From assembly GCF_017968885.1 (NCBI RefSeq), contig NZ_CP072913.1, forward strand, positions 6,612,501 to 6,676,500: 64,000 nt of DNA, given 5' to 3'. A program made the translations under genes and the position numbers. Below the pieces are notes generated by a model. It was not told the origin of the DNA. It saw nothing but the letters and a program-made list of their open reading frames with translations, and did not search any database. The stretch comes from Pseudomonas sp. Tri1 (GTDB lineage Bacteria; Pseudomonadota; Gammaproteobacteria; Pseudomonadales; Pseudomonadaceae). Shown one piece after another: positions 30,249 to 47,087 of this stretch (the first letter of the stretch is position 1; each line of letters begins with the position of its first letter).

Positions 30249-31214
30249 TCACTCAGACCGACAACTCACCAGACCGGCTTGCAGAACATCGACATCCTGC
30301 GGCTCAGCGAAAATCAGCTCGATCCGTGAGTCTTGTCGCCATTCACTGGGTAGCCACTGCGCAGCGGCGCCGTCCAAGGCATTGGCCGACACCCAGCCAT
30401 CGGTGCTGTGGACAACCATCTTCGCCCGTTTCCAGTCTTGGTCTTGCAGCCATCGAGTCAACGCCACCGTGTCGAAGTGCTGGCTCGGGTGCCAGCGCCA
30501 GCCGACACTCCAGCCACCTTCCTGTTGCTGGTACAGACAGATCGGCAACTTCGGGTCGGTCCAGATAACCTGCATCTGGCCTTTGTCCTCGGGCAGCTTG
30601 AAGTTGTCCACAGCCCCACACCCCCGAGCCGCAACTCCCGGTAGTCGACCGATGGGTAGCGCCGCCTGTTGCGTCCAGTACAGCACAAGCTCGGGCAACT
30701 GCGCAGTGATGCGAGCTCGGTCATCCTCGGTGAGGTTCTCGGATTTGTTCAACACCAGCAGGCCGGCGCTGTCCAAGGCTTGTCGTTGTGCATCGGGCAA
30801 TGGCTTGCCGTCCGCTATCGCCTGGGCATCCAGCACCAGCACGCAAGGCTGCACCGCCAGCACGCCGAGCCACGGCGCTTCGTTCAGTTGTCGTATCAGT
30901 TGCGCTGGATGGCCGAGCCCGGAAGGCTCGATGAGCAGCCGGTGCGGTCGAGCCTTGCGCAGCAAACGAGCAAGGCCGATCTGGAATGGCGCGCCGTTGA
31001 CGCAACACAAACAGCCCCCGGCCACTTCGCCCAGTGCGATACCATCGGCGGCCTGGGTCAGCAACGCGGCATCCAGGCCGATCTGACCGAATTCGTTGAT
31101 CAGCACCGCCCAGCGTTCATTGACCGGGCGCTGTGTCAGCAGGTGCTTGATCAAGCTGGTCTTGCCTGCCCCCAAGGGACCGGCGATGACATGGGTGGGA
31201 ATGTTCTGCAACAT
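30249..31214 (-). CDS. COG0523 (CobW-type) GTPase, probable zinc metallochaperone
   Basis: 321 residues. The G1 loop is GPLGAGKTSL, the metal-binding CxCC motif is GGCLCCVNG, the switch region has IEPSGLGHP, and NKSE is in the position of NKxD. The C-terminal CobW_C domain is present. COG0523 proteins are GTP-dependent metallochaperones, and subfamilies linked to zinc starvation are common in Pseudomonas. Here it sits at the edge of a cluster with ZigA, FolE2 and a metal importer. Only 27 bases separate it from the divergent secreted-protein gene, so its promoter must lie inside that gene. Confidence 0.88.
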   Translation of the reverse strand: MLQNIPTHVIAGPLGAGKTSLIKHLLTQRPVNERWAVLINEFGQIGLDAALLTQAADGIALGEVAGGCLCCVNGAPFQIGLARLLRKARPHRLLIEPSGLGHPAQLIRQLNEAPWLGVLAVQPCVLVLDAQAIADGKPLPDAQRQALDSAGLLVLNKSENLTEDDRARITAQLPELVLYWTQQAALPIGRLPGVAARGCGAVDNFKLPEDKGQMQVIWTDPKLPICLYQQQEGGWSVGWRWHPSQHFDTVALTRWLQDQDWKRAKMVVHSTDGWVSANALDGAAAQWLPSEWRQDSRIELIFAEPQDVDVLQAGLVSCRSE

Positions 31215-31241
31215 AATCGACGGCTTTCGATGGAGGTGAAA

Positions 31242-31595
31242 ATGCGGATGATTGGCTGGTTGTTGCTGGCACTGACTTCGAACCAGGCATTGGCCCAGGC
31301 TTGTGTGGTGCACAGTCAGGCGGAACGACTCGATGTAAAAGTCTGCCAGCAGAACCGCAACATCCCGCAGAAACTGTTCGCCGACGGCTTCTGCCAGCCA
31401 AGCCTCTCCGGGCAAAAAGTCGAGGTGCAGTACGTCGATCAGTGCCCCGGCGGCGCATTTGGCATCTGCAGCAACGCCCAGGTTGCCAATATGCCTTACC
31501 GCCAGGATATTCACTATTACGGTGTGGCCACTGACGCAGCTTACCTCCAACCGTATTGTGAAGGTCAAAGCCAGGGCACCTGGCTCAGACCTTAA
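31242..31595 (+). CDS. Small secreted Cys-rich protein in zinc cluster
   Basis: 117 residues with a signal peptide (MIGWLLLALTSNQALA, cleavage after ALA). The mature part of about 95 residues has six cysteines, enough for three disulfides, spaced over its whole length, and ends in a Tyr/Gly-rich tail. I do not recognise the family. GGAGG lies five bases before the chosen ATG; an ATG six bases later is also possible. It is convergent with the DUF1826 gene, the two stop codons overlapping at TTAA. Its setting suggests a periplasmic or exported role in zinc limitation. Confidence 0.7.
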   Translation: MRMIGWLLLALTSNQALAQACVVHSQAERLDVKVCQQNRNIPQKLFADGFCQPSLSGQKVEVQYVDQCPGGAFGICSNAQVANMPYRQDIHYYGVATDAAYLQPYCEGQSQGTWLRP

Positions 31596-32242
31596 GCCAG
31601 CCAGTCCAGCGTGAGGATCAATCGGCGTTCTCCCGGGCCCAGCTCCGGCGAGCGATGGATCAGGCCGAAACCCTCATTACCGTGCCACTTCTCGCCTTTA
31701 AGCAACGCCACATCACCGCTGCAAAGCTGCTGGATCACGCGCGAATCGCCGGGCTCGGCTTGCGGCTGCGACAGCCCCTGCCGGTCCATGGCGCCTTCCT
31801 TGAGCCACTGACTGCCGGCGCCGATATAAGTGGTGATTAGCCGTACCGGTACATGGTCAACGTGAAAGCGCGGGCACATTGCCTTGTCCAGGGCGCGCAG
31901 ACGCAGGCCGACACGTTTGGCACCCAACAGGCAGGTAAACGCACTGACCAGCCAAGAGACATCGGCGACAAAGCCCTCGTAGCCTTGCAGATCGCTGAAT
32001 CCTGCGGCGAGACCGTGCAGCACTGGCTGAGTGTCTTCCTCCGGCAAGTCGAGCACCAGCGACTCGGCCAATGGTTGCTCCATCGAAAGCACCATGGCCG
32101 CGAAGTCGCTGATATGCGCCGGAAGCTGACGTTGCCAGACCGCCAGGTTGGTGCCGTCCTCCAGAATTTGTGTCAGGACTCGTGGCGTTTCGTCCCGGAC
32201 CTGGCGTACCGGTGCAGCCCTTTTCAGGCTGGGCGCCAACAT
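31592..32242 (-). CDS. DUF1826 protein
   Basis: 216 residues, soluble. A central FHVDHVPVRLITTYIGAGSQWL and a later DVALLKGEKWHGNEGFGLIHRSPEL give several conserved His, Asp and Glu residues, reminiscent of metal- or oxygenase-type jelly-roll sites. The function is unknown. The start overlaps the zigA stop (TGATG), so the two are translationally coupled. DUF1826 genes are known to sit with zinc-starvation COG0523 genes. Confidence 0.85.
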   Translation of the reverse strand: MLAPSLKRAAPVRQVRDETPRVLTQILEDGTNLAVWQRQLPAHISDFAAMVLSMEQPLAESLVLDLPEEDTQPVLHGLAAGFSDLQGYEGFVADVSWLVSAFTCLLGAKRVGLRLRALDKAMCPRFHVDHVPVRLITTYIGAGSQWLKEGAMDRQGLSQPQAEPGDSRVIQQLCSGDVALLKGEKWHGNEGFGLIHRSPELGPGERRLILTLDWLA

Positions 32243-33450
32243 CACGCCGCGACCTCGTCATGCCACGGACCGAACGGATCCGGCAGCAAGCGCCAACTTT
32301 CGACACCCTGAGCCATTTCCGCGTCGGTGAGCAGGCAAGCGTCCAGTTCAACGCTGAGCCGGCTGAAGTCGATGTCTTGTCCGATGAATACCAGTTCCTG
32401 ACGGCAGTCGCCCGTGGCGGGCAGCCAGTTTTTAAGGATGGCGGCGCTACTTTCTTCATCCTGCGGCCATTGGTTTTTCGGCACAAAGCGCCACCAACGC
32501 CCGGCAAATCCGTGACGCATCAAGCCGCCGGCTTGGGACCAACTGCCCGCTTCCTCAGGTTTACTGGCAAGCCAGAAGAAGCCCTTGGAGCGCAGGAGTT
32601 TACCGTTGGTCCACGGACGGTCGATGAAGCTGAAAAAACGCTGGGGATGAAACGGTCGACGTGCCCGATAAGCCGTCGAAGCAATACCGTATTCTTCGGT
32701 CTCGGGCACATGCGCGCCACGCAGCTCCTGTAGCCAGCCGGGTGCTTGAGCGGCACGTTCAAAGTCGAAAAGACCGGTGTCGAGGATGCGCCCCAGGGGA
32801 ACCTGCCCCATGACCATGGGAATGATCTGCGCCTGGGCGTTGAGGCGCTGCAGAATCGCAATCAATTCTTCCCGTTCGTCACGGCTGATCAGGTCGATTT
32901 TGCTGATTAAAATCACGTCGGCGAACTCGATCTGCTCGATCAGTAGGTCAGTAATCGAGCGCTCGTCTTCCTCACCCAAGGTTTCGCCTCGCGACGCAAG
33001 GCTTTCGGCGGCCTGGAAATCGACCAGGAAATTCATCCCATCAACCACCGTCACCATCGTGTCGAGCCGGGCGACATCGGCCAAGCTGCGACCCTCTTCA
33101 TCACGAAATGTGAAGGTTTCCGCCACCGGCAAGGGTTCAGAAATTCCCGTGGATTCGATCAGCAGATAATCGAAGCGCCCTTCTCTGGCGAGCTGGCCGA
33201 CTGCCTCCAGCAAGTCCTCACGCAGTGTGCAGCAGATGCAGCCGTTGCTCATTTCCACCAGCTTTTCTTCGGCGCGGTTCAGGGTTACATCTCGCTGGAC
33301 TTCGCTGCCATCGATGTTGATCTCGCTCATATCGTTAACGATCACGGCAACCCGTAGATTGTCGCGATTACGCAAAATGTAGTTAAGCAGCGTGCTTTTA
33401 CCGGCACCAAGAAATCCAGACAGTACCGTTACGGGAAGGCGATTGGGCAT
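32242..33450 (-). CDS. zigA: ZigA/YciC-type zinc metallochaperone GTPase
   Basis: 402 residues of the COG0523 YciC/ZigA subfamily. [14 protein letters not shown] is the Walker A loop, followed by [13 protein letters not shown], the metal motif [26 protein letters not shown] and ISKIDLIS (NKxD position). The long C-terminal CobW_C domain with [11 protein letters not shown] is present. It probably hydrolyses GTP to load zinc into client enzymes during zinc shortage. A perfect Zur box lies about 100 bases upstream, supporting zinc-dependent repression. The start at 33450 has GAGGAT upstream. Confidence 0.92.
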
Positions 33451-33551
33451 CAGGTATATCCTCATCGGGGGCGGCCGTTGCTGACGCTGTTCACGCGCGT
33501 CATGGCTCGTTTTTCAGGCTTTGGCTGGGTTCAGGGCCTGGCTGATTTTTA

Positions 33552-33566
33552 TGTTATAGTATAACA
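33552..33566. promoter_or_regulatory. Zur box (divergent)
   Basis: TGTTATAGTATAACA is a perfect 15-bp palindrome matching the GTTATANTATAAC Zur consensus. It lies between zigA (minus) and the small secreted-protein gene (plus), 47 bases before the latter, and could control both. Confidence 0.88.
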
Positions 33567-33612
33567 ACTCCATTCAACCAGTCCTGTCACCTCATTGGTC
33601 TGAGAACTATCA

Positions 33613-34014
33613 ATGCGCAACTGTCTGAAACTCGTATTTGCCGCAGGCCCATTGTTGCTGTGGGCATTGAGCGCGTCAGCTCAGAGCCCGCTCTTGGCCA
33701 ACTGCACCCGCAGTGCCAACTTGTTGGCTTGCGTTGACGGACAAGGCAATACCTACAGCGTCGCAACGAGCGGAAACACCCTGTATTTGCGTGGTTTTGA
33801 AGCGTTCAGCCATCGTTATTGGGCACAAACGAACAGTCGTTACGGTCAACTCACCTTTTTCACAGGCTTGGCGTCCGATGGAGAAAGTTGGGTTGGATAC
33901 AGCCGGCGCGTTGGCTGGACGACTATCAACCGCTTCTCCAGTTCAGGCGGCGGTGGTAGTGCCGGCGCGTTTACATGCGGTCGCATGAACGGTTGCCAGG
34001 ATTCTTCGCGCTGA
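33613..34014 (+). CDS. Small secreted protein, probably Zur-regulated
   Basis: 133 residues with a signal peptide (LVFAAGPLLLWALSASAQ). The mature part has four cysteines in two close pairs at its ends (NCTRSANLLAC; CGRMNGC), a middle rich in Tyr, Gly and Ser, and a glycine run. I do not recognise the family. A perfect Zur box stands 47 bases upstream of the start. It is the second short secreted protein in this zinc cluster, and a metal-scavenging or envelope role is possible but unproven. Confidence 0.75.
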   Translation: MRNCLKLVFAAGPLLLWALSASAQSPLLANCTRSANLLACVDGQGNTYSVATSGNTLYLRGFEAFSHRYWAQTNSRYGQLTFFTGLASDGESWVGYSRRVGWTTINRFSSSGGGGSAGAFTCGRMNGCQDSSR

Positions 34015-34030
34015 TGTTTCACGTGGAACA
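34015..34030. promoter_or_regulatory. parS-like site
   Basis: TGTTTCACGTGGAACA matches the ParB site TGTTCCACGTGGAACA at 15 of 16 positions. It directly follows the stop codon of the small secreted-protein gene. Confidence 0.75.
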
Positions 34031-34082
34031 TGGGAGGGAGGAAATGAAACTCTGTTCATAAAAGAGGTATCTTCGAAGCTAC

Positions 34083-34097
34083 TGTTATACTATAACA
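34083..34097. promoter_or_regulatory. Zur box upstream of folE2
   Basis: TGTTATACTATAACA is a perfect 15-bp Zur-type palindrome 31 bases before the folE2 start, in position to repress the folE2 and metal ABC transporter unit when zinc is sufficient. Confidence 0.88.
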
Positions 34098-34127
34098 TTA
34101 AATTCGAACCCACGATGGACCTCTCCC

Positions 34128-35024
34128 ATGAACGCGTTAACGCTGCCAGACGTTGCTACGCAGGCTTCACGCCAAGCCCTACCCCTCGATTGGGTCGGCA
34201 TGTGTGGCATCGCAACACCGGTGTTGATCGACGGTCAGCGTCTGATCGCGACCGCCGACGCAGGTGTCAGCCTCGACGACGGTGAAGCTCGAGGCATCCA
34301 CATGTCACGTTTGTACCTGGCGTTGGAGTTGCTTGACGGCACGCCACTTTGCGCATCGCTGTTGCGTCGCATCCTGCAGCAGTTTCTCGATAGCCATGAG
34401 GGCTTATCTCATAAAGCCTCCCTGAAAATTCACACCGACTTGTTGTTCAAACGCGCGGCATTAATCAGCCCCTTGGCAGGCTGGAAGCGCTATCCAGTGA
34501 GTATCGAAGCGCATCTGAGCAGCACAGTGTTCCACGTGGAACTGAAAATCCAGGTCCCCTATTCTTCTACCTGCCCCTGCTCAGCCGCACTCGCTCGGCA
34601 GTTGATCCAACAGCAATTCGTGGACGATTTCGCTAACAAGACACTCGGGCACGCAGAAATACTGGCCTGGTTGGGTTCAGCAAACGGCATTGTCGCGACG
34701 CCTCATAGTCAACGTAGTACGGCCACTCTGAATCTTCGGTTGAGCGCCGACGTCGACGAATTGCCTCTACTGTCCCTGATCAATGACGCCGAAGCGGCTC
34801 TAGGCACCGCAGTGCAAACCGCAGTCAAGCGCGCCGATGAGCAGGCCTTCGCGCTCGCCAACGGCCAGAATCTGATGTTCTGCGAAGACGCCGCTCGACG
34901 ACTGAGCACGGCCTTGAGAAAGTCGTCCGCCATCGCCGCCCTGGATGTACGCGTCGTCCACGCCGAGAGCCTGCATGCCCATGACGCCGTGGCCCAAAGC
35001 CGTTGGCAGCGGGAGGCATCATGA
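34128..35024 (+). CDS. folE2: GTP cyclohydrolase FolE2 (type IB)
   Basis: 298 residues of the GCYH-IB family, which makes 7,8-dihydroneopterin triphosphate for folate and can use metals other than zinc. Family marks are DWVGMCGIATPV at the N terminus, STCPCSAALARQ with the metal-site cysteine, and TPHSQRSTATLNLRL near the catalytic region. It replaces zinc-dependent FolE when zinc is scarce. A Zur box is directly upstream, and the next gene overlaps its stop (ATGA), so it leads a four-gene operon. A parS-like site lies inside the gene. Confidence 0.95.
   Translation: MNALTLPDVATQASRQALPLDWVGMCGIATPVLIDGQRLIATADAGVSLDDGEARGIHMSRLYLALELLDGTPLCASLLRRILQQFLDSHEGLSHKASLKIHTDLLFKRAALISPLAGWKRYPVSIEAHLSSTVFHVELKIQVPYSSTCPCSAALARQLIQQQFVDDFANKTLGHAEILAWLGSANGIVATPHSQRSTATLNLRLSADVDELPLLSLINDAEAALGTAVQTAVKRADEQAFALANGQNLMFCEDAARRLSTALRKSSAIAALDVRVVHAESLHAHDAVAQSRWQREAS
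34528..34543. promoter_or_regulatory. parS-like site within folE2
   Basis: TGTTCCACGTGGAACT matches the Pseudomonas parS sequence except at the last base. It is within coding sequence, encoding VFHVEL, as many parS sites are. Confidence 0.75.
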
Positions 35025-35689
35025 TCCGTTGCCAAACCTTGCGCTGGGGTGCTCCCGGGCAACCTCTCACGCCACCGCTGAATATGGAGCGGCCAACGGG
35101 CAGCCTGACGGCCATCATCGGCGCCAACGGTTCGGGCAAAAGCAGCCTTCTGAAAGTCCTCGCGGGGCTGCAAAAACCTCTATCCGGCAAAGTTACGCTG
35201 GATGTTCCACGCCGCGGCGGTGTCTCATTCCTGCCGCAGCAGCAACATCTGGATCGGCAATTCCCCATCAGCTTGCAAGAGCTGGTGGCCGCCGGTTCCT
35301 GGGGTAATGGGCACACACCCGCCATGCGCAGGCAGTTGCTCCAGACAGCTCTGGACGACTGGGCGTTGGCGGGTCTGCAACATCGTCCGTTGATGGCGTT
35401 GTCTGGCGGCGAGTTACAGCGCGCCCTGCTCGCTCGCCTGAGCCTGGCCGAAGCGCCGCTGCTGTTGCTCGACGAACCCCACGTCGCACTCGACGAACAA
35501 GGCCAGGCGCTATTGTGGAAACACATCCACGGCTGGCACGCGACGGGCAGAACCGTGGTGGTGGCTTGTCATGACTTGGCAGCGGTGCGCGAGCACATTC
35601 CTCACACGTTGCTGGTCAGCCACGCCGGCTGCGTACTGAGTCGCAGTGTCGACCTGATCGCCGAACAACCTCGCATGCGGGTGGCCTGA
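35021..35689 (+). CDS. Metal ABC transporter ATPase (ZnuC-like)
   Basis: 222 residues. Walker A is GANGSGKSS, the signature is LSGGELQRALLARL, Walker B is LLLLDEPH and the H-loop is VVACHD. The size and the next two genes place it in the metal-type (zinc/manganese) ABC family. ATG overlaps the folE2 stop and GGGAGG lies upstream. With the Zur box before folE2, zinc is the likely substrate of the system. Confidence 0.92.
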   Translation: MIRCQTLRWGAPGQPLTPPLNMERPTGSLTAIIGANGSGKSSLLKVLAGLQKPLSGKVTLDVPRRGGVSFLPQQQHLDRQFPISLQELVAAGSWGNGHTPAMRRQLLQTALDDWALAGLQHRPLMALSGGELQRALLARLSLAEAPLLLLDEPHVALDEQGQALLWKHIHGWHATGRTVVVACHDLAAVREHIPHTLLVSHAGCVLSRSVDLIAEQPRMRVA

Positions 35690-36555
35690 TGCTTGCGGCC
35701 ACCCATCTTTGGCAACCGTTCCAGGAATTCGTGTTCATGCGCCGTGCCTTGCTTGGCGGCCTAGTATTGGCGTGCAGTACAGCCCCGCTGGGGGTGTTTC
35801 TGATTCTTCGACGCATGAGCCTGATCGGCGATGCCGTGGCTCACGGCATTTTGCCCGGTGCAGCCCTGGGTTTCTGGTTCGCCGGATTGAGCCTGCCGGC
35901 CCTGACACTTGGCGGCTTGGGCGCCGGCCTGGGCATGGCCGGGCTGGCGGCGTGGATTACCCGGCGTACCGGTCTGCGGGAAGACGCCAGCCTCGCGGCG
36001 ATTTATCCGATCTCCCTTGCCGCTGGCGTGTTGATCCTCGGCATGGCCGGCAAACGCTTGGATTTGCTTCACCTGTTATTCGGCTCAGCACTGGCGGTCG
36101 ACGGCCCGACACTCACCGGTATGCTTTGGGTTTCCGCGGCCAGCCTGGTGGCCATGGCGCTGATTTACCGACCCCTGTTGCTCGACACCCTGGATCCGCT
36201 GTTCCTGCAAACCGTCAGCCGCTTGGGTCCGTGGGCCCATGGCGTATTTCTGACCCTGGTAGTGTTGAATCTGGTGATCGGCTTCCAGGCCATCGGCGCG
36301 CTGATGGTGGTTGGCCTGATGATGCTCCCCGCCGCCGCTTCGCGGTTCTGGAGCCGGCGCCTGCCGATTCTCATGATGATCGCGGCGCTGCTCGGTTGCC
36401 TATCGGTGTGGCTTGGCCTGTTGTTGTCCTTCTATTTCTCACTGCCCAGCGGACCGGCCATCGTACTGGTAGCCGGGGCGTTGTATCTGTTGTCCGTGGT
36501 GTTCGGTCCGGTGCACGGTTTGCTGCGCCGCCCGCCCTTGCTCACATCCCAATGA
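35689..36555 (+). CDS. Metal ABC transporter permease (ZnuB-like)
   Basis: 288 residues with about eight hydrophobic segments. FLILRRMSLIGDAVAHGILPGAALGF is the signature of ABC-3 type metal permeases, and LVIGFQAIGALMVVGLMMLPAAASRFW is the late conserved segment. It overlaps the ATPase gene by one base (TGATG). It would form the membrane channel for zinc with the ATPase and binding protein of the same operon. Confidence 0.92.
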   Translation: MLAATHLWQPFQEFVFMRRALLGGLVLACSTAPLGVFLILRRMSLIGDAVAHGILPGAALGFWFAGLSLPALTLGGLGAGLGMAGLAAWITRRTGLREDASLAAIYPISLAAGVLILGMAGKRLDLLHLLFGSALAVDGPTLTGMLWVSAASLVAMALIYRPLLLDTLDPLFLQTVSRLGPWAHGVFLTLVVLNLVIGFQAIGALMVVGLMMLPAAASRFWSRRLPILMMIAALLGCLSVWLGLLLSFYFSLPSGPAIVLVAGALYLLSVVFGPVHGLLRRPPLLTSQ

Positions 36556-36566
36556 GGTGTTTCCCG

Positions 36567-37442
36567 ATGCGCGTCCTGTTCGTGCTGTTCAGTCTGATGC
36601 TGTCCATGTCCTTGTCCGCTGCCGAAAAACTCCAGGTGGTGACCAGCTTCAGCATCCTCGCCGACATGACCCGACAGGTCGGCGGCGAGCATATCCAAAT
36701 CACCAACATGGTCGGGCCGGACGCCGATGCGCACACCTATGAACCCACACCGGACGATGCCAAGGCATTGCTCAGCGCAAAACTGATCATCAAGAATGGG
36801 TTGGGTTTCGAGCCGTGGTTGGATCGCCTGGTCACCAGCACCGAAACCGGCGCCCCGGTGATCAGCGCCAGTCGCGGAGTGATTCCTCGTTCGCTGGATG
36901 AAGATGGCGAGACCATTCCCGACCCGCACGCCTGGCACAATCTGGCGAATGCCGAGCTGTATGTCAGCAACATCACCAAGGCGCTGGAAGCGGCGGACCC
37001 AGCTAACAAGGCCGACTACGAACGCAACAGCCAGGCGTATCTGAAGAAGATCTACGCCCTGCTTGCCGAAGCCAAGGCCAAGCTCGGGGGGTTGCCGCCA
37101 GGCAATCGCAAGATCGTGACGTCCCACGATGCGTTCGGTTACCTGGGCCAGGCCTACGGTATCGAGTTCATGGCGCCGCAGGGTCTATCCACTGAACGTG
37201 AGCCTTCGGCCTCAGAGGTCGCGGCGCTGATTACCCAGATTCGCCAGGCGAAAGTCAAAGCGGTGTTCATGGAAAACATCAAGGATGCGCGCCTGCTCAA
37301 GCAGATTGCTGACGAAAGCGGCGCGCACATTGGCGGTACGCTGTACTCCGATGCCCTCGCGGCCAGCGGACCGGCCAGCACCTTCACCGGGCTGTTCGAG
37401 TACAACCTCAACACACTCTACGAGGCATTGAGCCGGCCCTGA
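36567..37442 (+). CDS. Metal ABC transporter substrate-binding protein
   Basis: 291 residues with a signal peptide (MRVLFVLFSLMLSMSLSAAE). It is a cluster A-I metal-binding protein. Candidate metal ligands are the His in DADAHTYEP, the His residues in DPHAWHNL, the His in TSHDAFGYLG and the Asp in LYSDAL. It lacks the long His-rich loop of ZnuA, so it resembles the AztC or second-system type. It is the last gene of the folE2-led operon; a degenerate REP-like stretch follows to about 37560. Confidence 0.9.
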   Translation: MRVLFVLFSLMLSMSLSAAEKLQVVTSFSILADMTRQVGGEHIQITNMVGPDADAHTYEPTPDDAKALLSAKLIIKNGLGFEPWLDRLVTSTETGAPVISASRGVIPRSLDEDGETIPDPHAWHNLANAELYVSNITKALEAADPANKADYERNSQAYLKKIYALLAEAKAKLGGLPPGNRKIVTSHDAFGYLGQAYGIEFMAPQGLSTEREPSASEVAALITQIRQAKVKAVFMENIKDARLLKQIADESGAHIGGTLYSDALAASGPASTFTGLFEYNLNTLYEALSRP

Positions 37443-41046: not shown

Positions 41047-42963
41047 CTATCCAACGACTTCTCTCTCTTGGATTTTCAACAGTGGCTCTTGGAACCGCAG
41101 CAATCGCCCGGCATTACCTAACACTAGCAGAGTGCTCAGATTGTGCAGCAGCGCCGCGATCATCGCGCCCGCTGCACCGAGCCAACCGAACGCGGCGAAA
41201 GCGACGATTGCCAATGTCCAACCCAGGCCGATGATCACATTGACCTGCAGCGTGCGCCTGCATTGGCGGCTGAGCCGGACGCAGGTGCCAAGGCGACGCA
41301 GATCGCTACCGATCAACACGATGTCCGCCGAGGCGAGGGCAATGTCTGCGCCACCCGCCCCCATCGCGACGCCCACCACTCCAGCCTTGAGTGCCAGTGA
41401 ATCGTTGATGCCATCACCCACGACCATAGGCCGGAAGCCGTGGTCGATTTCGGCCATCACACGCTTGAGTTTATCTTCCGGCAAGGCCTGGGCTTGCACA
41501 TCACCGATACCGATATCCTGGGCCAGGGTGTGGGCCACGCTGCGACGGTCACCGGTCAACAGCAGCTGACGGCCAAGGCCCAACTCCCGCAGTTCAGCCA
41601 TGGCAGCCCGCGCTTCCGGCTTGACGCTGTCGGCCAGCAGCAGCCAGGCGAGGAATTGTCCATCCAGGGCCAGCCCGGCAATCGGGCCATCATGGTTGGG
41701 CACCGCTGAAGTTTCGATGCCCAGCAGGGCGAACAACTCCGGCCGTCCCAGGGCCGCCTCGCCCTGCCCGGTCATCGCCACTACCCCCAGGCCCTGGCGC
41801 TCATGGATATCCCTCAGTGGCAGGCAATGCTCCTGTTCCACCAACCCCGCCAGCGCTCGGCTGACCGGATGGCTGCTGGCCGAGCCGAGGCTGGCGGCCA
41901 ACGCCAGTAAAGGCGCGTGATCATCGTAGGCACTTTCGATGGATTGCAGGCGCAGGGAGCCGTACGTCAGAGTGCCGGTCTTGTCGACGACCAACGACGT
42001 CAGGTCCGCCAATTCCTCCAGAAAGGCCGAACTGCGAATCAGAATCCCGTGGCGCGCCGCTACCGCGATCCCGGCAATAGCCGTCGCTGGCGCCGACAAC
42101 ACTAACGCGCAAGGGCACGCCGCCACCAACACCGCCAGCATTGCCTGGGAGTCGTTAGTGACAAACCAGGTCACCGCCGCCAGCAGCAATACCAACACGA
42201 GATAACTGCCAGCGTAGCGTTCCAGCAACCGGGTGATAGGCGGCTTGGAGCGTTCGGCGTTCTGCATCAAGGCAATGACTTTGCCCAGGGTTGACTCATT
42301 GCCGGTGCGCGTCACTTCCAAGCGCAACAACCCATCGAGGTTGATCGCGCCACCAAAGACTTCGATACCGACCACCGCCTCCAGCGGCACCGATTCGCCC
42401 GTGATCGGCGCGGTGTCGAGGCTGGCCTGGCCGGACAACACTCGACCATCGGCCGGCACCCGGTCCCCGGCGCGCACCTCGACCACATCGCCGGGCTGAA
42501 GTGTGCTGTTATCGACTTCGATGATCGAACCATCGGCCTGCACCTTGCGACCTTGGCTACGGGTCAGTTGGCCAAGGGCGTGAATCGCCTCCTGGGAACC
42601 GATGACACTGCGCTCTTCCAACACATGGCCGAAGATCATGATGATCGGCAATAGCGCTGCCGTCAGCAGATCACCCGTGGCCCAGGCGCCAAGCATCGCC
42701 AGGGCAATCAGTTGATCGGTGATCCCGTGCAGGCTCGGATAGCGCAGGCTGTACCAGGCCGAACGCATCACCGGCACCGCCACCAGCAGCGAGGCGCTCC
42801 CCAACAGCAGTTGGCTGACCCCGCTCTGCTGGGGTGACCAACCGCGCCACACCAGGCCCAAGGCGAGTAAACCAAGGGCGAGCATCGCCAAGGTCAGCTG
42901 GCGGGCGGCCGCACGTTGTTCAGTGGAAGACAACATCGGCATCGCGACGGTCTGAGCGCTCAT
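41047..42963 (-). CDS. P1B-type metal-transporting ATPase
   Basis: 638 residues with about eight membrane segments. The TGES-type actuator loop is PITGESVPLE, the metal-site motif is ACPCALVLSAPA (CPC about residue 281), the phosphorylation motif is VVDKTGTLTYGS (Asp about 326), SSHPVSRAL carries the HP dipeptide, and VVGDGINDSLALKAG completes the hinge. There is no N-terminal HMA or Cys-rich domain. Such pumps move Zn/Cd/Co or Cu; which one cannot be fixed here. It overlaps the preceding SPFH gene (ATGA), so it is the last gene of a four-gene operon. Position behind a His-rich SPFH gene and a Zur-like site favours zinc. Confidence 0.9.
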   Translation of the reverse strand: MSAQTVAMPMLSSTEQRAAARQLTLAMLALGLLALGLVWRGWSPQQSGVSQLLLGSASLLVAVPVMRSAWYSLRYPSLHGITDQLIALAMLGAWATGDLLTAALLPIIMIFGHVLEERSVIGSQEAIHALGQLTRSQGRKVQADGSIIEVDNSTLQPGDVVEVRAGDRVPADGRVLSGQASLDTAPITGESVPLEAVVGIEVFGGAINLDGLLRLEVTRTGNESTLGKVIALMQNAERSKPPITRLLERYAGSYLVLVLLLAAVTWFVTNDSQAMLAVLVAACPCALVLSAPATAIAGIAVAARHGILIRSSAFLEELADLTSLVVDKTGTLTYGSLRLQSIESAYDDHAPLLALAASLGSASSHPVSRALAGLVEQEHCLPLRDIHERQGLGVVAMTGQGEAALGRPELFALLGIETSAVPNHDGPIAGLALDGQFLAWLLLADSVKPEARAAMAELRELGLGRQLLLTGDRRSVAHTLAQDIGIGDVQAQALPEDKLKRVMAEIDHGFRPMVVGDGINDSLALKAGVVGVAMGAGGADIALASADIVLIGSDLRRLGTCVRLSRQCRRTLQVNVIIGLGWTLAIVAFAAFGWLGAAGAMIAALLHNLSTLLVLGNAGRLLRFQEPLLKIQEREVVG

Positions 42964-44011
42964 TGTTCGGCTCCCTGAATAATCAGGCGGGAATCGTCTT
43001 TCGGGTCGACCGTCGTCACCGAGCCGGCCTGACGAAGGATAGTGGGCATGCGTTCGCGATAAAGGCGCAACAGCATTTGCGGATCGCTGCTTTGGCTCTT
43101 CGCCAGGCCGAGCACCGTGGCGGTGTCGGCCGACGCCTTGGCGAGCCGTTCACTGGCCTGGGCGTGGGCGACTTGCACGGCGCGATCAGCGTCCTGGCGA
43201 GCGGTCTGGGTCAACTTCTCGGCTTCGGTCCGAGCGTTGGCCACCACTTTGTCAGCCTGCTGGCTGGCCGTCAGCACCGCATTGAAGGCACTCACAGCCG
43301 GCCCTGGCAGACTCGATTGAACGTCAACCCGCACCACTTCAATACCCAACCCCTGCCCTGTCGCGGCAAGCTCGGCCAGCCGTCGGTTAATCCCTTGCAC
43401 CAGATCGCCACGCAAGCGTTCGCGGCGGTCAGCGGCCTGGTTATCGCTGCCCATCAATTCGGGACGGGCCACCAGAATGGTGTCCAGGTCCCGGGCGGCG
43501 GTCAGGGCCACGGCACTGCGAGTCGCCAGTCGATCCAGCGCCGGCAGCACATGTTCGCCCTGTAAAACGAAGGCGTAGGGTTCGGTCACTTTGTAAAACA
43601 GCCGCACATCCAGTTGCACCACACCCGCATCACCGGTCAATAAATAACCGGATCCGGCCAGTGCATCACTCACCGGCGTGGCGAAACTGGCAACACGATC
43701 TGCCTGTAACGCCGCATCGGCGCGCAGCAGGTTTTCCACCCGTCGTTCAAGAACCCGATCCGCCGCCGGCAGCAGGACCACCTGTTCCACGGGGCGGGGC
43801 CAGGCCAGTAGCAGGCCCGCATTCTGGATTCGATCCATGGCCCCAAAGTGCAGTACCACCGCGCGGCTCTGGGGGTCAATCTGCCGCACATTGGAAAAAC
43901 CCAGGCCAACGCCGCCAACACGGTTACCGCGTAAAGCGCTAGAAATGCCAGTCGCCCTGCCTGAATCCACGGGCTGGACAAGCCATTTGTTCCACGTGGA
44001 ACCAAACTCAT
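42960..44011 (-). CDS. SPFH/HflK-HflC-like membrane protein, interrupted by a one-base frameshift
   Basis: The upstream gene overlaps ATG 44011 (ATGA). From there the frame gives MSLVPRGTNGLSS and a membrane segment (LAFLALYAVTVLAALAWVF), then leaves the family at a T5 run (43895-43899) and would stop after 113 residues. In the -1 frame the sequence continues as SNVRQIDPQSRAVVLHFG, a normal SPFH start, and stays open to 42960. One more T would give a continuous protein of about 350 residues ending in a coiled-coil SPFH tail. The apparent ORF from 44051 lacks the membrane anchor and is probably artefactual at its 5' end. The cause could be a mutation, a sequencing error or slippage. Partner genes are two other SPFH genes and the ATPase. 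Confidence 0.8.
43988..44003. promoter_or_regulatory. parS site
   Basis: TGTTCCACGTGGAACC equals the Pseudomonas parS sequence as I recall it. It is inside the first codons (VPRGT) of the frameshifted SPFH gene. ParB would load here to organise the origin region. Confidence 0.85.
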
Positions 44012-45045
44012 GGCTGTGTTCCACCTTTGGGTTCCACGGCAGGCGGCCCATCGACCAACACCCGGAATGGCGCGGCGTCGGTGCGCAGAATCAGCTTTGT
44101 ACCCGGCGAAACAATGGTTCCCAACGTATCCAGCGAACGCAGAAGGTTGTAGAGCTGGGGTGAGCCAGCGTATGCCCTGCCGTAAATGGCAGCCGCCTCC
44201 ACTCGGGACTGCGCCTCAATGTCAGCGGCTTTCACCGTAGCATCGGCCTGTACGATTCGCGCATCACGCTCCGCGGCAGAACGAATTTGCGCCGCTTCAC
44301 GCTTGCCGATTGCCGTGCGCTCGGTGGCGATGGTTTCGCGCTCGGCGCGCATGCGATCCACCGTCGCGGTCAGGGTCACCGAGGGCAAGGTCAGGCGCTC
44401 GATACCGACTTGCAACACACGCACCCCGTAGGTAGTGAGCAACTGTTGATCAATCTGCTGACGCAACTGAGCTTCGAAATCAGCGATGCGTACCTGGCTG
44501 GCATCGGTGTTGACCAGGTTCGCCAAGTCAAAGCTGGCGGCCGTGGTTTCCAGCGCCGAACCGACGAAGGTGCGGATTTGCCGTGCGGCTTCGTCCGGCT
44601 GGTTCTGCACCGCGCGCATGAAACGCTGCACGTTGTCCGGATCGCCCTGGACCTGCCACGCCACGTACGCCTGAACGATGATTCGCAAGCCGTCGCGCGT
44701 GCCGACGTCCTGTAACCCGCTGGAGGTGGTGCGCAATCGCAAGTCCACCGGGATCGCCGCCTCGAACGGCGCCGGCCAGCGCCAGCCCAGGCCCGGTTGC
44801 AGCAGCACCCGTGCCGGATTGCCGAAGCGGGTTATCACGGTGGCCTCCCCCGAGCGCACTTGTACCAGGCTGGCGGCGGCCACGGCGAACGCCACCAGCA
44901 GCGTCGCCCAGCCCATTCGCCGCCAGGGAAACGGACCGGCTTGCTGTGGGTCGCCGTGATGGTGATGATGCCCATGGTGGTGGCCGGCATGACCGTGATC
45001 GTGACCGGCGTGGTCGTGGTGATCGTGTGAAGAAGACGGGCTCAA
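44008..45045 (-). CDS. SPFH/HflC-like protein with His-rich N terminus
   Basis: 345 residues from a TTG start that overlaps the preceding stop (TTGA) with GGAG upstream. Residues 6-31 contain about fifteen histidines with Asp and Gly, a likely cytoplasmic metal-binding tail. One membrane segment (WATLLVAFAVAAASLV) follows, then an SPFH domain: GEATVITRFGNPARVLLQPGLGWRWPAPFE, the middle AYVAWQVQGDPDNVQRFM, and a coiled-coil tail (TERTAIGKREAAQIRSAAERDA). Usual HflC regulates the FtsH protease, but no hflX, hflK or ftsH is near. The His tail suggests zinc or nickel handling together with the operon's metal ATPase. Confidence 0.88.
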   Translation of the reverse strand: MSPSSSHDHHDHAGHDHGHAGHHHGHHHHHGDPQQAGPFPWRRMGWATLLVAFAVAAASLVQVRSGEATVITRFGNPARVLLQPGLGWRWPAPFEAAIPVDLRLRTTSSGLQDVGTRDGLRIIVQAYVAWQVQGDPDNVQRFMRAVQNQPDEAARQIRTFVGSALETTAASFDLANLVNTDASQVRIADFEAQLRQQIDQQLLTTYGVRVLQVGIERLTLPSVTLTATVDRMRAERETIATERTAIGKREAAQIRSAAERDARIVQADATVKAADIEAQSRVEAAAIYGRAYAGSPQLYNLLRSLDTLGTIVSPGTKLILRTDAAPFRVLVDGPPAVEPKGGTQP

Positions 45046-47003
45046 TGGGCAGCTCCTGGCTGGACAGGGTTACGCGGCGACGCGGGGTCTACCGGCAGCG
45101 TGAAGGTTCGTAGGTCAATGGTTGGCGCGTTGCTGCTGCCGCCCAAGCGATGATCGAGAATCAGCAACTTCGCGTTGCCAAGGCCCTGGCTCAATTGGCT
45201 GAAGTATTGCTCCAACAAAAACGCGTGGCCGGCCGTCGCGTAGGCTTTGCGTTCGGCGTTGAAGCGCAAGTCGGCGGCCTCGGCGGTGGCGTTGATTTCC
45301 CGGGCGGAGGCCTGGGCCTGATCATGGGCGATGCTGGCTTGCAGTTGTGCCTGGTTGGTCTGCTCCGCCGCCGCGCCGCGCTCCCGGGCAATCAGTGCCT
45401 GGGCACCGATCTGCGCCGCCTGCACGCCGTGGTAGGCATTGGCCGCACCGGCGGGGGGATGAATCGCCTCGACCACGGTCGCCAGAATTTCCACGCCACT
45501 GTCGAGCGATTGCAAGTCGGCCTGTACGGCGCGACCGATTTCATCGGCCAGGCTGACACGATCCGCGCCCAGCAAACCGTCCAGCGTGCGGGAGGCGAAC
45601 TCATGCACCAGGACGCGGCTGGCAGTACTGCGGATCAGCGAGGGCACATCGGCGCTGTTGTAGGACGCCGCCAGCGCCGCTGCGTCAGTCAGGCCAATGC
45701 GATAAACGAAGCGCACGTCCATGTTCACGACCTGGAAGCTCTGCTGGTCTGCGCGACGGCTGGCGATCACTTGGGACTTGTCGTTCACGTGACTGGCATC
45801 CCATAACCGATTAGCGATCGCCGGGGCCGGCCCCTCGGCCGGATCTGCATCCGTGGGCTGGCGATTATCGCCGACGCTGGTGGCCAGCTCATGGACAACG
45901 CCATTCTCGACGCTCAGCACCCGGCCCAGCGGCCAGGGCAAGCCAACCTGCAAGCCAGGGCCAAACACCTCCACCGGTTTACCGAAGCGCTCATAGATAC
46001 CACGCCCCTGCAGTGGCACTTCATGCACGCCCGTCAGCAACCAACCCACCAGCGCTACCAGCGCCAGCACCGGCAAAAAGGCTCGGCGCATGTAACTGAA
46101 GGCCCAGATCTGCCGCAGGTCGATGCCGAAACGGTTGTGCAATTCATGCTGCAAAGCCAATAACGGCTGTGGCGGCCAGCGCAGTAGATCAGCGATGACA
46201 CTGCGCCCCAACAGGGTCGGCTCCAAGGCATCCCGGCGCGGGTTGAATAACGACAGCAGCGCGCGCAGCAACAGCTCCACCGCCACCAGCCCGGGTAACA
46301 ATCCAATCAGCACCGCCAGGCGCACCGGCCAAACCGAGGTCTCTACCGCGAACAGCAAGCACAAGGCGCCGAGCACCAGCACGATGATCGCCACCCGAGC
46401 CAATTGCGCCAGCGCCGACGCTTCCGGCCACTCCACGGCGGGCTGCTGGGCCAATTGACGTTCGAACACCAGCAACCCAAACGCCAACAACAATGAAAAC
46501 GCTGCACCCACGCTGGCTGAGACGCCGAGGGCGGTGCCAGGCAACTCCAGGTTCCAGACTTGCTCCAGACTCAACAATACCAACACTGACCAACCGGCCA
46601 GCCATAGGGTTGGGGCACCGATCTGCTTTAGCAGGCCGACCCAGCGCGCGCCGATTCGCTCGAGTAGCCGCTCGTACCAACCCAAGTTATCAATAGGCTC
46701 GTCTTCGGGAATGGAGATATCCACAGCCGGCAGCAGCGCCCTGCCCCGCCATTGCGTAACCCACCAGGCCGATTGCAAACCCGCCACCAGCACCAGCAAA
46801 CTTGCACTCTGGCCGATCAACAGCGCCGGCCATAGCGATTGCGGTGAGAACAGTCCGACAAAAAAAGCCAGTACCCAACCCACACACGCCAAGCTACCCA
46901 GCCCAAAAGCGATCCGCTTCAAACGTCGCCCTTGAAACTGTGCCTGCTGAAAGCGCGGCCATTCGGCAACCTGTGCCCCCTCGACATCAAGATCGACTTG
47001 CAT
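45042..47003 (-). CDS. Multi-pass membrane SPFH/HflK-like fusion
   Basis: 653 residues, well above the roughly 400 of HflK. The first 250 residues carry six hydrophobic segments and a further one lies at about 302-327 (AFLPVLALVALVGWLL). An SPFH domain then starts with LQGRGIYERFGKPVEVFGPGLQVGLPWP. It continues with VNMDVRFVYRIGLTDAAAL and an Ala/Gln-rich coiled coil (RERGAAAEQTNQAQLQASIA). It heads an operon of overlapping genes with two more SPFH proteins and a P1B ATPase. A weak Zur-like box lies 72-84 bases upstream of the start. The extra membrane domain is not recognised. Confidence 0.88.
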   Translation of the reverse strand: MQVDLDVEGAQVAEWPRFQQAQFQGRRLKRIAFGLGSLACVGWVLAFFVGLFSPQSLWPALLIGQSASLLVLVAGLQSAWWVTQWRGRALLPAVDISIPEDEPIDNLGWYERLLERIGARWVGLLKQIGAPTLWLAGWSVLVLLSLEQVWNLELPGTALGVSASVGAAFSLLLAFGLLVFERQLAQQPAVEWPEASALAQLARVAIIVLVLGALCLLFAVETSVWPVRLAVLIGLLPGLVAVELLLRALLSLFNPRRDALEPTLLGRSVIADLLRWPPQPLLALQHELHNRFGIDLRQIWAFSYMRRAFLPVLALVALVGWLLTGVHEVPLQGRGIYERFGKPVEVFGPGLQVGLPWPLGRVLSVENGVVHELATSVGDNRQPTDADPAEGPAPAIANRLWDASHVNDKSQVIASRRADQQSFQVVNMDVRFVYRIGLTDAAALAASYNSADVPSLIRSTASRVLVHEFASRTLDGLLGADRVSLADEIGRAVQADLQSLDSGVEILATVVEAIHPPAGAANAYHGVQAAQIGAQALIARERGAAAEQTNQAQLQASIAHDQAQASAREINATAEAADLRFNAERKAYATAGHAFLLEQYFSQLSQGLGNAKLLILDHRLGGSSNAPTIDLRTFTLPVDPASPRNPVQPGAAH

Positions 47004-47074: not shown

Positions 47075-47087
47075 GTTACCTTATAAC
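47075..47087. promoter_or_regulatory. Weak Zur-like box upstream of SPFH-ATPase operon
   Basis: GTTACCTTATAAC agrees with GTTATANTATAAC at 10 of the 12 fixed positions. It lies in the divergent spacer between the SPFH operon and lpd. A wider pair, CGTTATA (47064-47070) and TATAACG (47082-47088), flanks it. Both readings are weaker than the two perfect boxes in the zinc cluster. Confidence 0.4.

Follow-up and report, generated by a model that had tools for sequence, protein, structure and literature searches.

A Pseudomonas sp. Tri1 counterpart of the hmtA cluster links three SPFH proteins to a probable metal importer of the P1B type

Almost all P1B ATPases export metal, and what is understood of HflK/C-type SPFH assemblies concerns mainly their partnership with FtsH. 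Among the P1B subgroups, P1B-2 is recognized by a Lys in transmembrane helix M5 and an Asp in M6, P1B-1 by the motifs YN and MxxSS in M5/M6 together with an N-terminal HMA domain, and P1B-4 is the subgroup name for the CoaT-like ATPases with SPC and HEGxT. Import activity of HmtA from Pseudomonas aeruginosa was reportedly described by Lewinson in 2009. Here we explore a window of 64,000 nucleotides from Pseudomonas sp. Tri1 (contig NZ_CP072913.1, positions 6,612,501 to 6,676,500; coordinates below are those of the window), part of a Pseudomonas-type chromosome of 6.7 Mb in one contig, in which three SPFH genes and one metal P-type ATPase gene form a tight array on the minus strand, running from 47003 to 41047. 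The locus and its kind are already known and are here described in another species: the array is the counterpart of the known P. aeruginosa hmtA cluster (PA2439-PA2435, where PA2435 is HmtA). On balance we favour a Zur-controlled module for the uptake of zinc, possibly also copper, in which an HflK/C-like SPFH assembly is dedicated to an importer pump.

In a znuA mutant of P. aeruginosa, PA2434, PA2435, PA2437, PA2438 and PA2439 were up 5.6-14.4 fold, and the predicted Zur site of the cluster is weak, with an E-value of 0.11 (PMC4542158). The PA2439 promoter was shifted by Zur, completely only with zinc (PMC8531726). Proteins of the cluster were raised on zinc depletion with mixed significance (PMC11761036), and N-acetylcysteine mildly increased PA2437-2439 (PMC9431628). 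The three SPFH genes have been named PaFlo5-7 and termed an operon; of ten other Pseudomonas species only two were found to have them, and the main text of that paper mentions neither HmtA nor the word ATPase (PMC13086221). HmtA is described in reviews as a zinc and copper importer (PMC10393844, PMC8456098). The sole match for hmtA, Hfl and PA2435/PA2437 in PMC11753293 is a reference-list entry unrelated to the locus.

The array in Tri1 has the succession SPFH-SPFH-SPFH-P1B ATPase on one strand, with a predicted Zur-type operator upstream of its first gene. All genes lie on the minus strand: SPFH1 (45042..47003, counterpart of PA2439/PaFlo5), SPFH2 (44008..45045, PA2438/PaFlo6), SPFH3 (42960..44011, PA2437/PaFlo7) and the ATPase, hereafter the pump (41047..42963, HmtA/PA2435). 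An earlier reading, made from the letters of the DNA and here called the sequence-only reading, had described four overlapping genes for three SPFH proteins, the first of them multi-pass, and a metal P-type ATPase. Both the protein assignments and the multi-pass first protein stood up: Band_7/SPFH (PF01145) scores 69.9, 110.5 and 56.3 bits for genes 1, 2 and 3, all above the cut-off of 23.6, gene 4 has a P1B core with E1-E2 and hydrolase domains and DKTGT, and ahead of the anchor helix of the HflK-like SPFH domain in SPFH1 a hydropathy plot gives about six extra N-terminal transmembrane stretches (overlapping peaks, judged by eye), a part that has no Pfam match. Of the gene succession itself, genes 1, 2 and 4 exist and 4-base stop/start overlaps tie gene 1 to the TTG start of gene 2 and gene 3 to the ATG of gene 4; gene 3 as called had to be revised since it is frameshifted. 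SPFH2 is HflC-like with one transmembrane helix and SPFH3 is HflK-like. SPFH1 is 56% identical, over nearly its full length, to a database protein labelled P. aeruginosa, and the pump is by locus and clade a probable orthologue of HmtA. A Sigma-70 promoter scan gave three sites, none of them on the strand of the array, whose four genes are presumably expressed as a single unit in Tri1.

The case for a dedicated module rests in large part on distribution. Of 107 loci, counting that of Tri1 itself, 106 agree in gene order and strand; the remaining one (L093) is a contig that ends after SPFH1. The loci of conserved order include Rhizobium, Paraburkholderia, Burkholderia and Klebsiella plasmids, that is alpha-, beta- and gammaproteobacteria. 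In the genus sample pump and SPFH1 occur in the identical 118 of 199 genomes and none has one alone (matches with E-values up to 1e-105 for the pump and 1e-100 for SPFH1). In the phylum sample, 11 of 398 genomes have the pump, and these are also the ones with SPFH1 at E < 1e-150; another two SPFH1 matches, near 1e-16, are more distant and no such pump was found in the surrounding stretch examined. Among 72,556 plasmid records pump and SPFH2 are each present in 10, the identical ones, and SPFH1 in those 10 plus one weak Paracoccus match. In the class sample pump and SPFH1 were each present in 1 of 331 genomes, that of Tri1 itself, which shows rarity and is no test of co-occurrence. Tri1 is counted in every sample that contains it, and since the searches score first-pass candidates only, absence is not proof. 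Across 25 loci the four proteins agree in their pairwise distances, with Spearman coefficients of 0.89-0.97. Relatedness inflates the figures for co-occurrence and distance; the plasmid copies across classes are mutually distant. An ATPase with 82% identity is found in a genome of the same family (L142). The co-conservation on which the sequence-only reading had staked its proposal thus holds for pump and SPFH1, always together in the samples.

Regulation points to zinc. A Zur-type box, GTTATAAGGTAAC (47075..47087, minus strand), lies 72 bases upstream of gene 1 and matches 11 of 12 positions of the palindrome GTTATA-N-TATAAC, an assignment made on sequence only. Of 107 upstream regions, 95 contain a 13-mer that matches at 11 or more of the 12 positions, where order-1 random sequences would yield 0.9, and the box can be aligned at 10 or more matches in 99 of 100 Pseudomonas-type and similar regions, L108 failing. 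Within those 99 regions conservation amounts to 1.82 bits per column in the box versus 0.86 and 0.35 in the flanks, where the within-site figure is inflated by the choice of sites by best match and the relatives are not independent. The pattern GTTATANNRTAAC occurs at three genomic places, and a reversed-pattern control gave two forward and two reverse matches; whole-genome rarity of the box is therefore weak alone, and the argument rests on its conserved position in relatives. Perfect GTTATA-N-TATAAC palindromes occur only twice in the whole genome, both within the window and on the plus strand, at 33553..33565 between zigA and a small unassigned gene and at 34084..34096 upstream of folE2. 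They fall in a zinc-starvation cluster (30249..37442), 4-11 kb from the array, that encodes a CobW-type GTPase, a DUF1826 protein, ZigA (678 bits, cut-off 600), a small protein, FolE2 and an AztABC-like ABC transporter scoring below the Azt cut-offs. On a Paraburkholderia plasmid the four genes directly follow zigA and a zinc ABC transporter. Box and neighbours together argue for action under zinc limitation, probably import rather than detoxification. As separate observations, the small protein (33613-34014, 133 aa, signal-like N terminus, no Pfam match), encoded between the two palindromes, is a possible candidate zinc-starvation gene, and three Rhizobium-type loci (L140, L141, L144) share a near-palindrome, GATACGTAATAACGTATC, upstream of SPFH1 that is possibly the site of a local regulator.

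The pump has an unusual membrane site. CPC (283-285 in the Tri1 pump) is invariant among 103 aligned pump-clade members. The column of the ZntA (4umv) transmembrane Lys is Thr, in a WT motif, in 103 of 103 pumps (T583), and the columns of the ZntA Asp and the next residue are His-Asn, in HNxST, in all 102 pumps with letters there (H607-N608), counts that omit three of 106 pump sequences shorter than 580 aa. Five of the seven other ATPase matches in the own genome were compared with the pump and all differ at the site, three being copper-type, one ZntA-type and one lacking CPx; the ZntA-type paralogue (L174) has K and D at the two columns. Alignment with 7qbz opposes SPC and HEGST to CPC and HNxST in the pump. 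Hence the pump has neither the Lys/Asp pair of P1B-2 (ZntA/CadA), nor YN, MxxSS and the N-terminal HMA domain of P1B-1 (CopA), nor SPC with HEGxT as in P1B-4 (CoaT-like), and because its CPC / WT / HNxST signature matches none of the three it is placed outside them by signature. The altered transmembrane site may be related to inward transport, although no sequence rule equates the signature with import. A profile search found no match to an HMA domain in the pump, in line with the earlier statement that it lacks a metal-binding domain of its own.

The about fifteen histidines that had been noted near the N terminus of SPFH2 are exactly 15, in residues 1-43 (44917..45045, minus strand). One helix follows this tail by hydropathy, and the arginines before it suggest that the tail is cytosolic and the SPFH domain periplasmic, as in HflC. 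An SPFH2 tail with at least seven His is present in 105 of the 106 loci that have both genes (L093 is left out), counting at most 45 residues before the first helix, which may include a few residues ahead of the real start. In the exception, a Klebsiella plasmid, the pump bears a His-rich tail (5 His) instead. His-rich pump tails with five or more His occur in at least eight of 106 loci, seven of which have tails on both proteins; pump tails were cut at the last methionine, so that the tailed pumps of L022 and L142 are uncounted and the figure is a lower bound. All 106 loci thus have a His tail on SPFH2 or on the pump and none has neither. The pump of the window has no such tail. Both kinds of tail would be on the cytosolic side. 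The suggestion of the sequence-only reading that the His tail replaces the missing metal-binding domain gains support from relatives with a tail on the ATPase as well, and from the plasmid with one on the ATPase only; an SPFH2 tail that serves the pump fits this distribution, and with an importer its role would be that of an acceptor. In two loci (L145, L146) the SPFH2 tail has Cys in addition to His (HGCSxGCHHxHH), whereas the tails of most other loci are nearly Cys-free.

The reading frame of SPFH3 is damaged in Tri1. The frame opened by the ATG at 44011, which overlaps the stop of gene 2, parts from that of the SPFH domain at about 43895, a point within the membrane-anchor helix. The open reading frame as listed starts at the ATG at 44051, and a hydropathy scan of it finds no stretch at the transmembrane threshold. 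In all 93 relatives an ATG at the gene 2 stop leads into the SPFH domain without a change of frame, and the overlap of genes 2 and 3 is four bases in 92 of these and slightly different in L023. The frameshift is either a strain mutation or an assembly error. Among other loci, SPFH3 stops early, at 220 aa, in L057, and SPFH1 of G443 (C1:934931-936888) is also damaged, being split across two frames.

By sequence the closest solved relatives of SPFH1 and SPFH2 are HflK/HflC. The proteins of the array were nonetheless rejected as canonical HflK/HflC, because a separate matching pair is encoded elsewhere in the genome (C1:622409-623916; 25-26% identity to SPFH3 and SPFH2) and because all three score below the equivalog cut-offs (TIGR01933 and TIGR01932; 52.8 for SPFH1 and 93.7 for SPFH3 versus 159.4, 92.8 for SPFH2 versus 134.4).

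In the mechanism that we consider most consistent with these data, zinc shortage would cause Zur to leave the box and the four genes would be expressed as one unit. The pump, as HmtA counterpart and unusual P1B ATPase, would move metal into the cytoplasm, while SPFH1-3 would form an HflK/HflC-like assembly, membrane-anchored and with periplasmic SPFH domains, probably as a ring or cage that would surround the pump or lie next to it, instead of surrounding FtsH. The cytosolic His tails, on SPFH2 and in some lineages on the pump, may accept or buffer the metal that enters. A stricter version, which we put forward tentatively and would not bet on, is that the three HflK/C-like proteins are an obligate periplasmic cage or ring of one metal importer, with movable cytosolic His arms that receive the metal, and that the pump constitutes a separate P1B subgroup (CPC / WT / HNxST) in which the altered site is linked to inward transport.

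Several points weigh against this proposal. The frameshift of SPFH3 may mean that the triad is not always needed or that the strain has lost it. The box at 11/12 is missing in 12 of 107 upstream regions, namely all ten Rhizobium-type, Burkholderia, Paraburkholderia, Klebsiella and distant-Pseudomonas ones (L022, L023, L123, L137-L143) as well as L144 and L108. In P. aeruginosa, hmtA mRNA was low and was unrepressed after zinc addition (PMC8531726), and one review excludes hmtA from the Zur-bound promoters (PMC10393844), which conflicts with the electrophoretic mobility shift passage of PMC8531726. The import direction of HmtA comes from overexpression data, cited through reviews (PMC10393844, PMC8456098). 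Strain PA14 without the three SPFH genes was unaffected in growth, with less biofilm and attenuated virulence in Galleria (PMC13086221); we suggest that these slight phenotypes reflect the lack of a metal-starvation test, none being seen in the available part of that paper. The physical SPFH-pump assembly, finally, is what we infer, as are transport direction in Tri1, protein topology and tail function.

The main rival to a pump-dedicated assembly holds that the three SPFH proteins are a form of HflK/HflC for zinc starvation, which binds the zinc protease FtsH and retunes it, and that they share a promoter with the pump only since both are needed under zinc shortage. It draws on the kinship of SPFH1 and SPFH2 with HflK/HflC, which are known FtsH partners (PMC13220708), on FtsH having been invoked for these proteins (PMC11761036, PMC9431628) and on two FtsH-family genes above cut-off in the genome, one at C1:937021. 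We nevertheless judge it unlikely, as none of the samples showed SPFH1 apart from the pump and the two have spread together across classes, the annotation of the four plasmid stretches that have one lists no FtsH gene, and the low identity and sub-cut-off scores given above set the triad apart from the own HflK/HflC. The second FtsH-family gene is at G000 C1:2835232-2836968 (733 bits, cut-off 600).

Two further explanations concern the substrate and its direction. That copper or some other metal is the main cargo of the pump, zinc control being secondary, would account for the unrepressed hmtA mRNA, which was attributed to copper import (PMC8531726), and agrees with the description of HmtA as a mover of copper and zinc (PMC10393844, PMC8456098) and with the PCu(A)C copper chaperone gene just upstream in Paraburkholderia; the conservation of the Zur-type box in Pseudomonas and the zinc-specific neighbours make it improbable. 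A scaffolded efflux pump for detoxification of zinc, cadmium or cobalt is suggested by the TIGR01512 (cadmium family) score of the pump, 491 bits against a cut-off of 313.5, and by databases that label some members cadmium or zinc exporters. Three findings led to its rejection as principal explanation and make it very improbable: the array has a Zur-type box, zinc-starvation genes lie nearby, and the pump lacks the K/D pair, every member with letters at the ZntA columns having T and H instead. The induction of the P. aeruginosa genes on zinc loss (PMC4542158) speaks against it too.

A Zur-controlled importer with its own SPFH assembly therefore remains our preferred explanation, and the dedicated metal-transport module of the sequence-only reading is well supported by the exceptionless co-occurrence of pump and SPFH1, the conserved box and the P. 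aeruginosa induction. New with respect to that reading are the identity with the known hmtA locus, the likely direction, import under zinc starvation instead of detoxification, and the frameshift of gene 3. The strict pairing of pump and SPFH across classes, the invariant pump site and the exchangeable tails were not found stated in the literature searched, which mostly excluded subscription papers, so that they may be in print elsewhere. The gene set being known, the question raised is why the pump would need the SPFH scaffold. A strict, class-crossing linkage of importer and SPFH offers one system for studying both SPFH assemblies with a non-protease client and inward P1B pumping.

Compared with the FtsH-HflK-HflC complex (PDB 7vhp, 7wi3, 9cz2), the array shares SPFH domains, membrane anchors and the mix of HflK-like and HflC-like proteins; beyond the distance in sequence from the own pair, it differs by a third SPFH protein, the extra transmembrane stretches of SPFH1, the His tail of SPFH2 and a P-type ATPase as partner. 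With ZntA/CadA, CopA and the CoaT-like ATPases the pump shares the P1B core, and with the first two also CPC, whereas the site residues are K-D in P1B-2, YN-MxxSS in P1B-1 and SPC-HEGST in P1B-4 and CPC / WT / HNxST in the pump, which unlike P1B-1 gave no HMA match. Closest is P. aeruginosa PA2439-PA2434 with PaFlo5-7 and HmtA, which matches the array in its gene types and their order (Table 2 of PMC4542158) and, like the window, has a Zur-type box, the induction by zinc loss being reported for P. aeruginosa. Its numbering implies PA2436 between SPFH3 and pump, where the window has a direct overlap; at this position L142 has an open reading frame of 150 aa without Pfam match (L142:11142-11594). 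In further contrast to the P. aeruginosa cluster, the pump of the window has no His tail and its SPFH3 is frameshifted.

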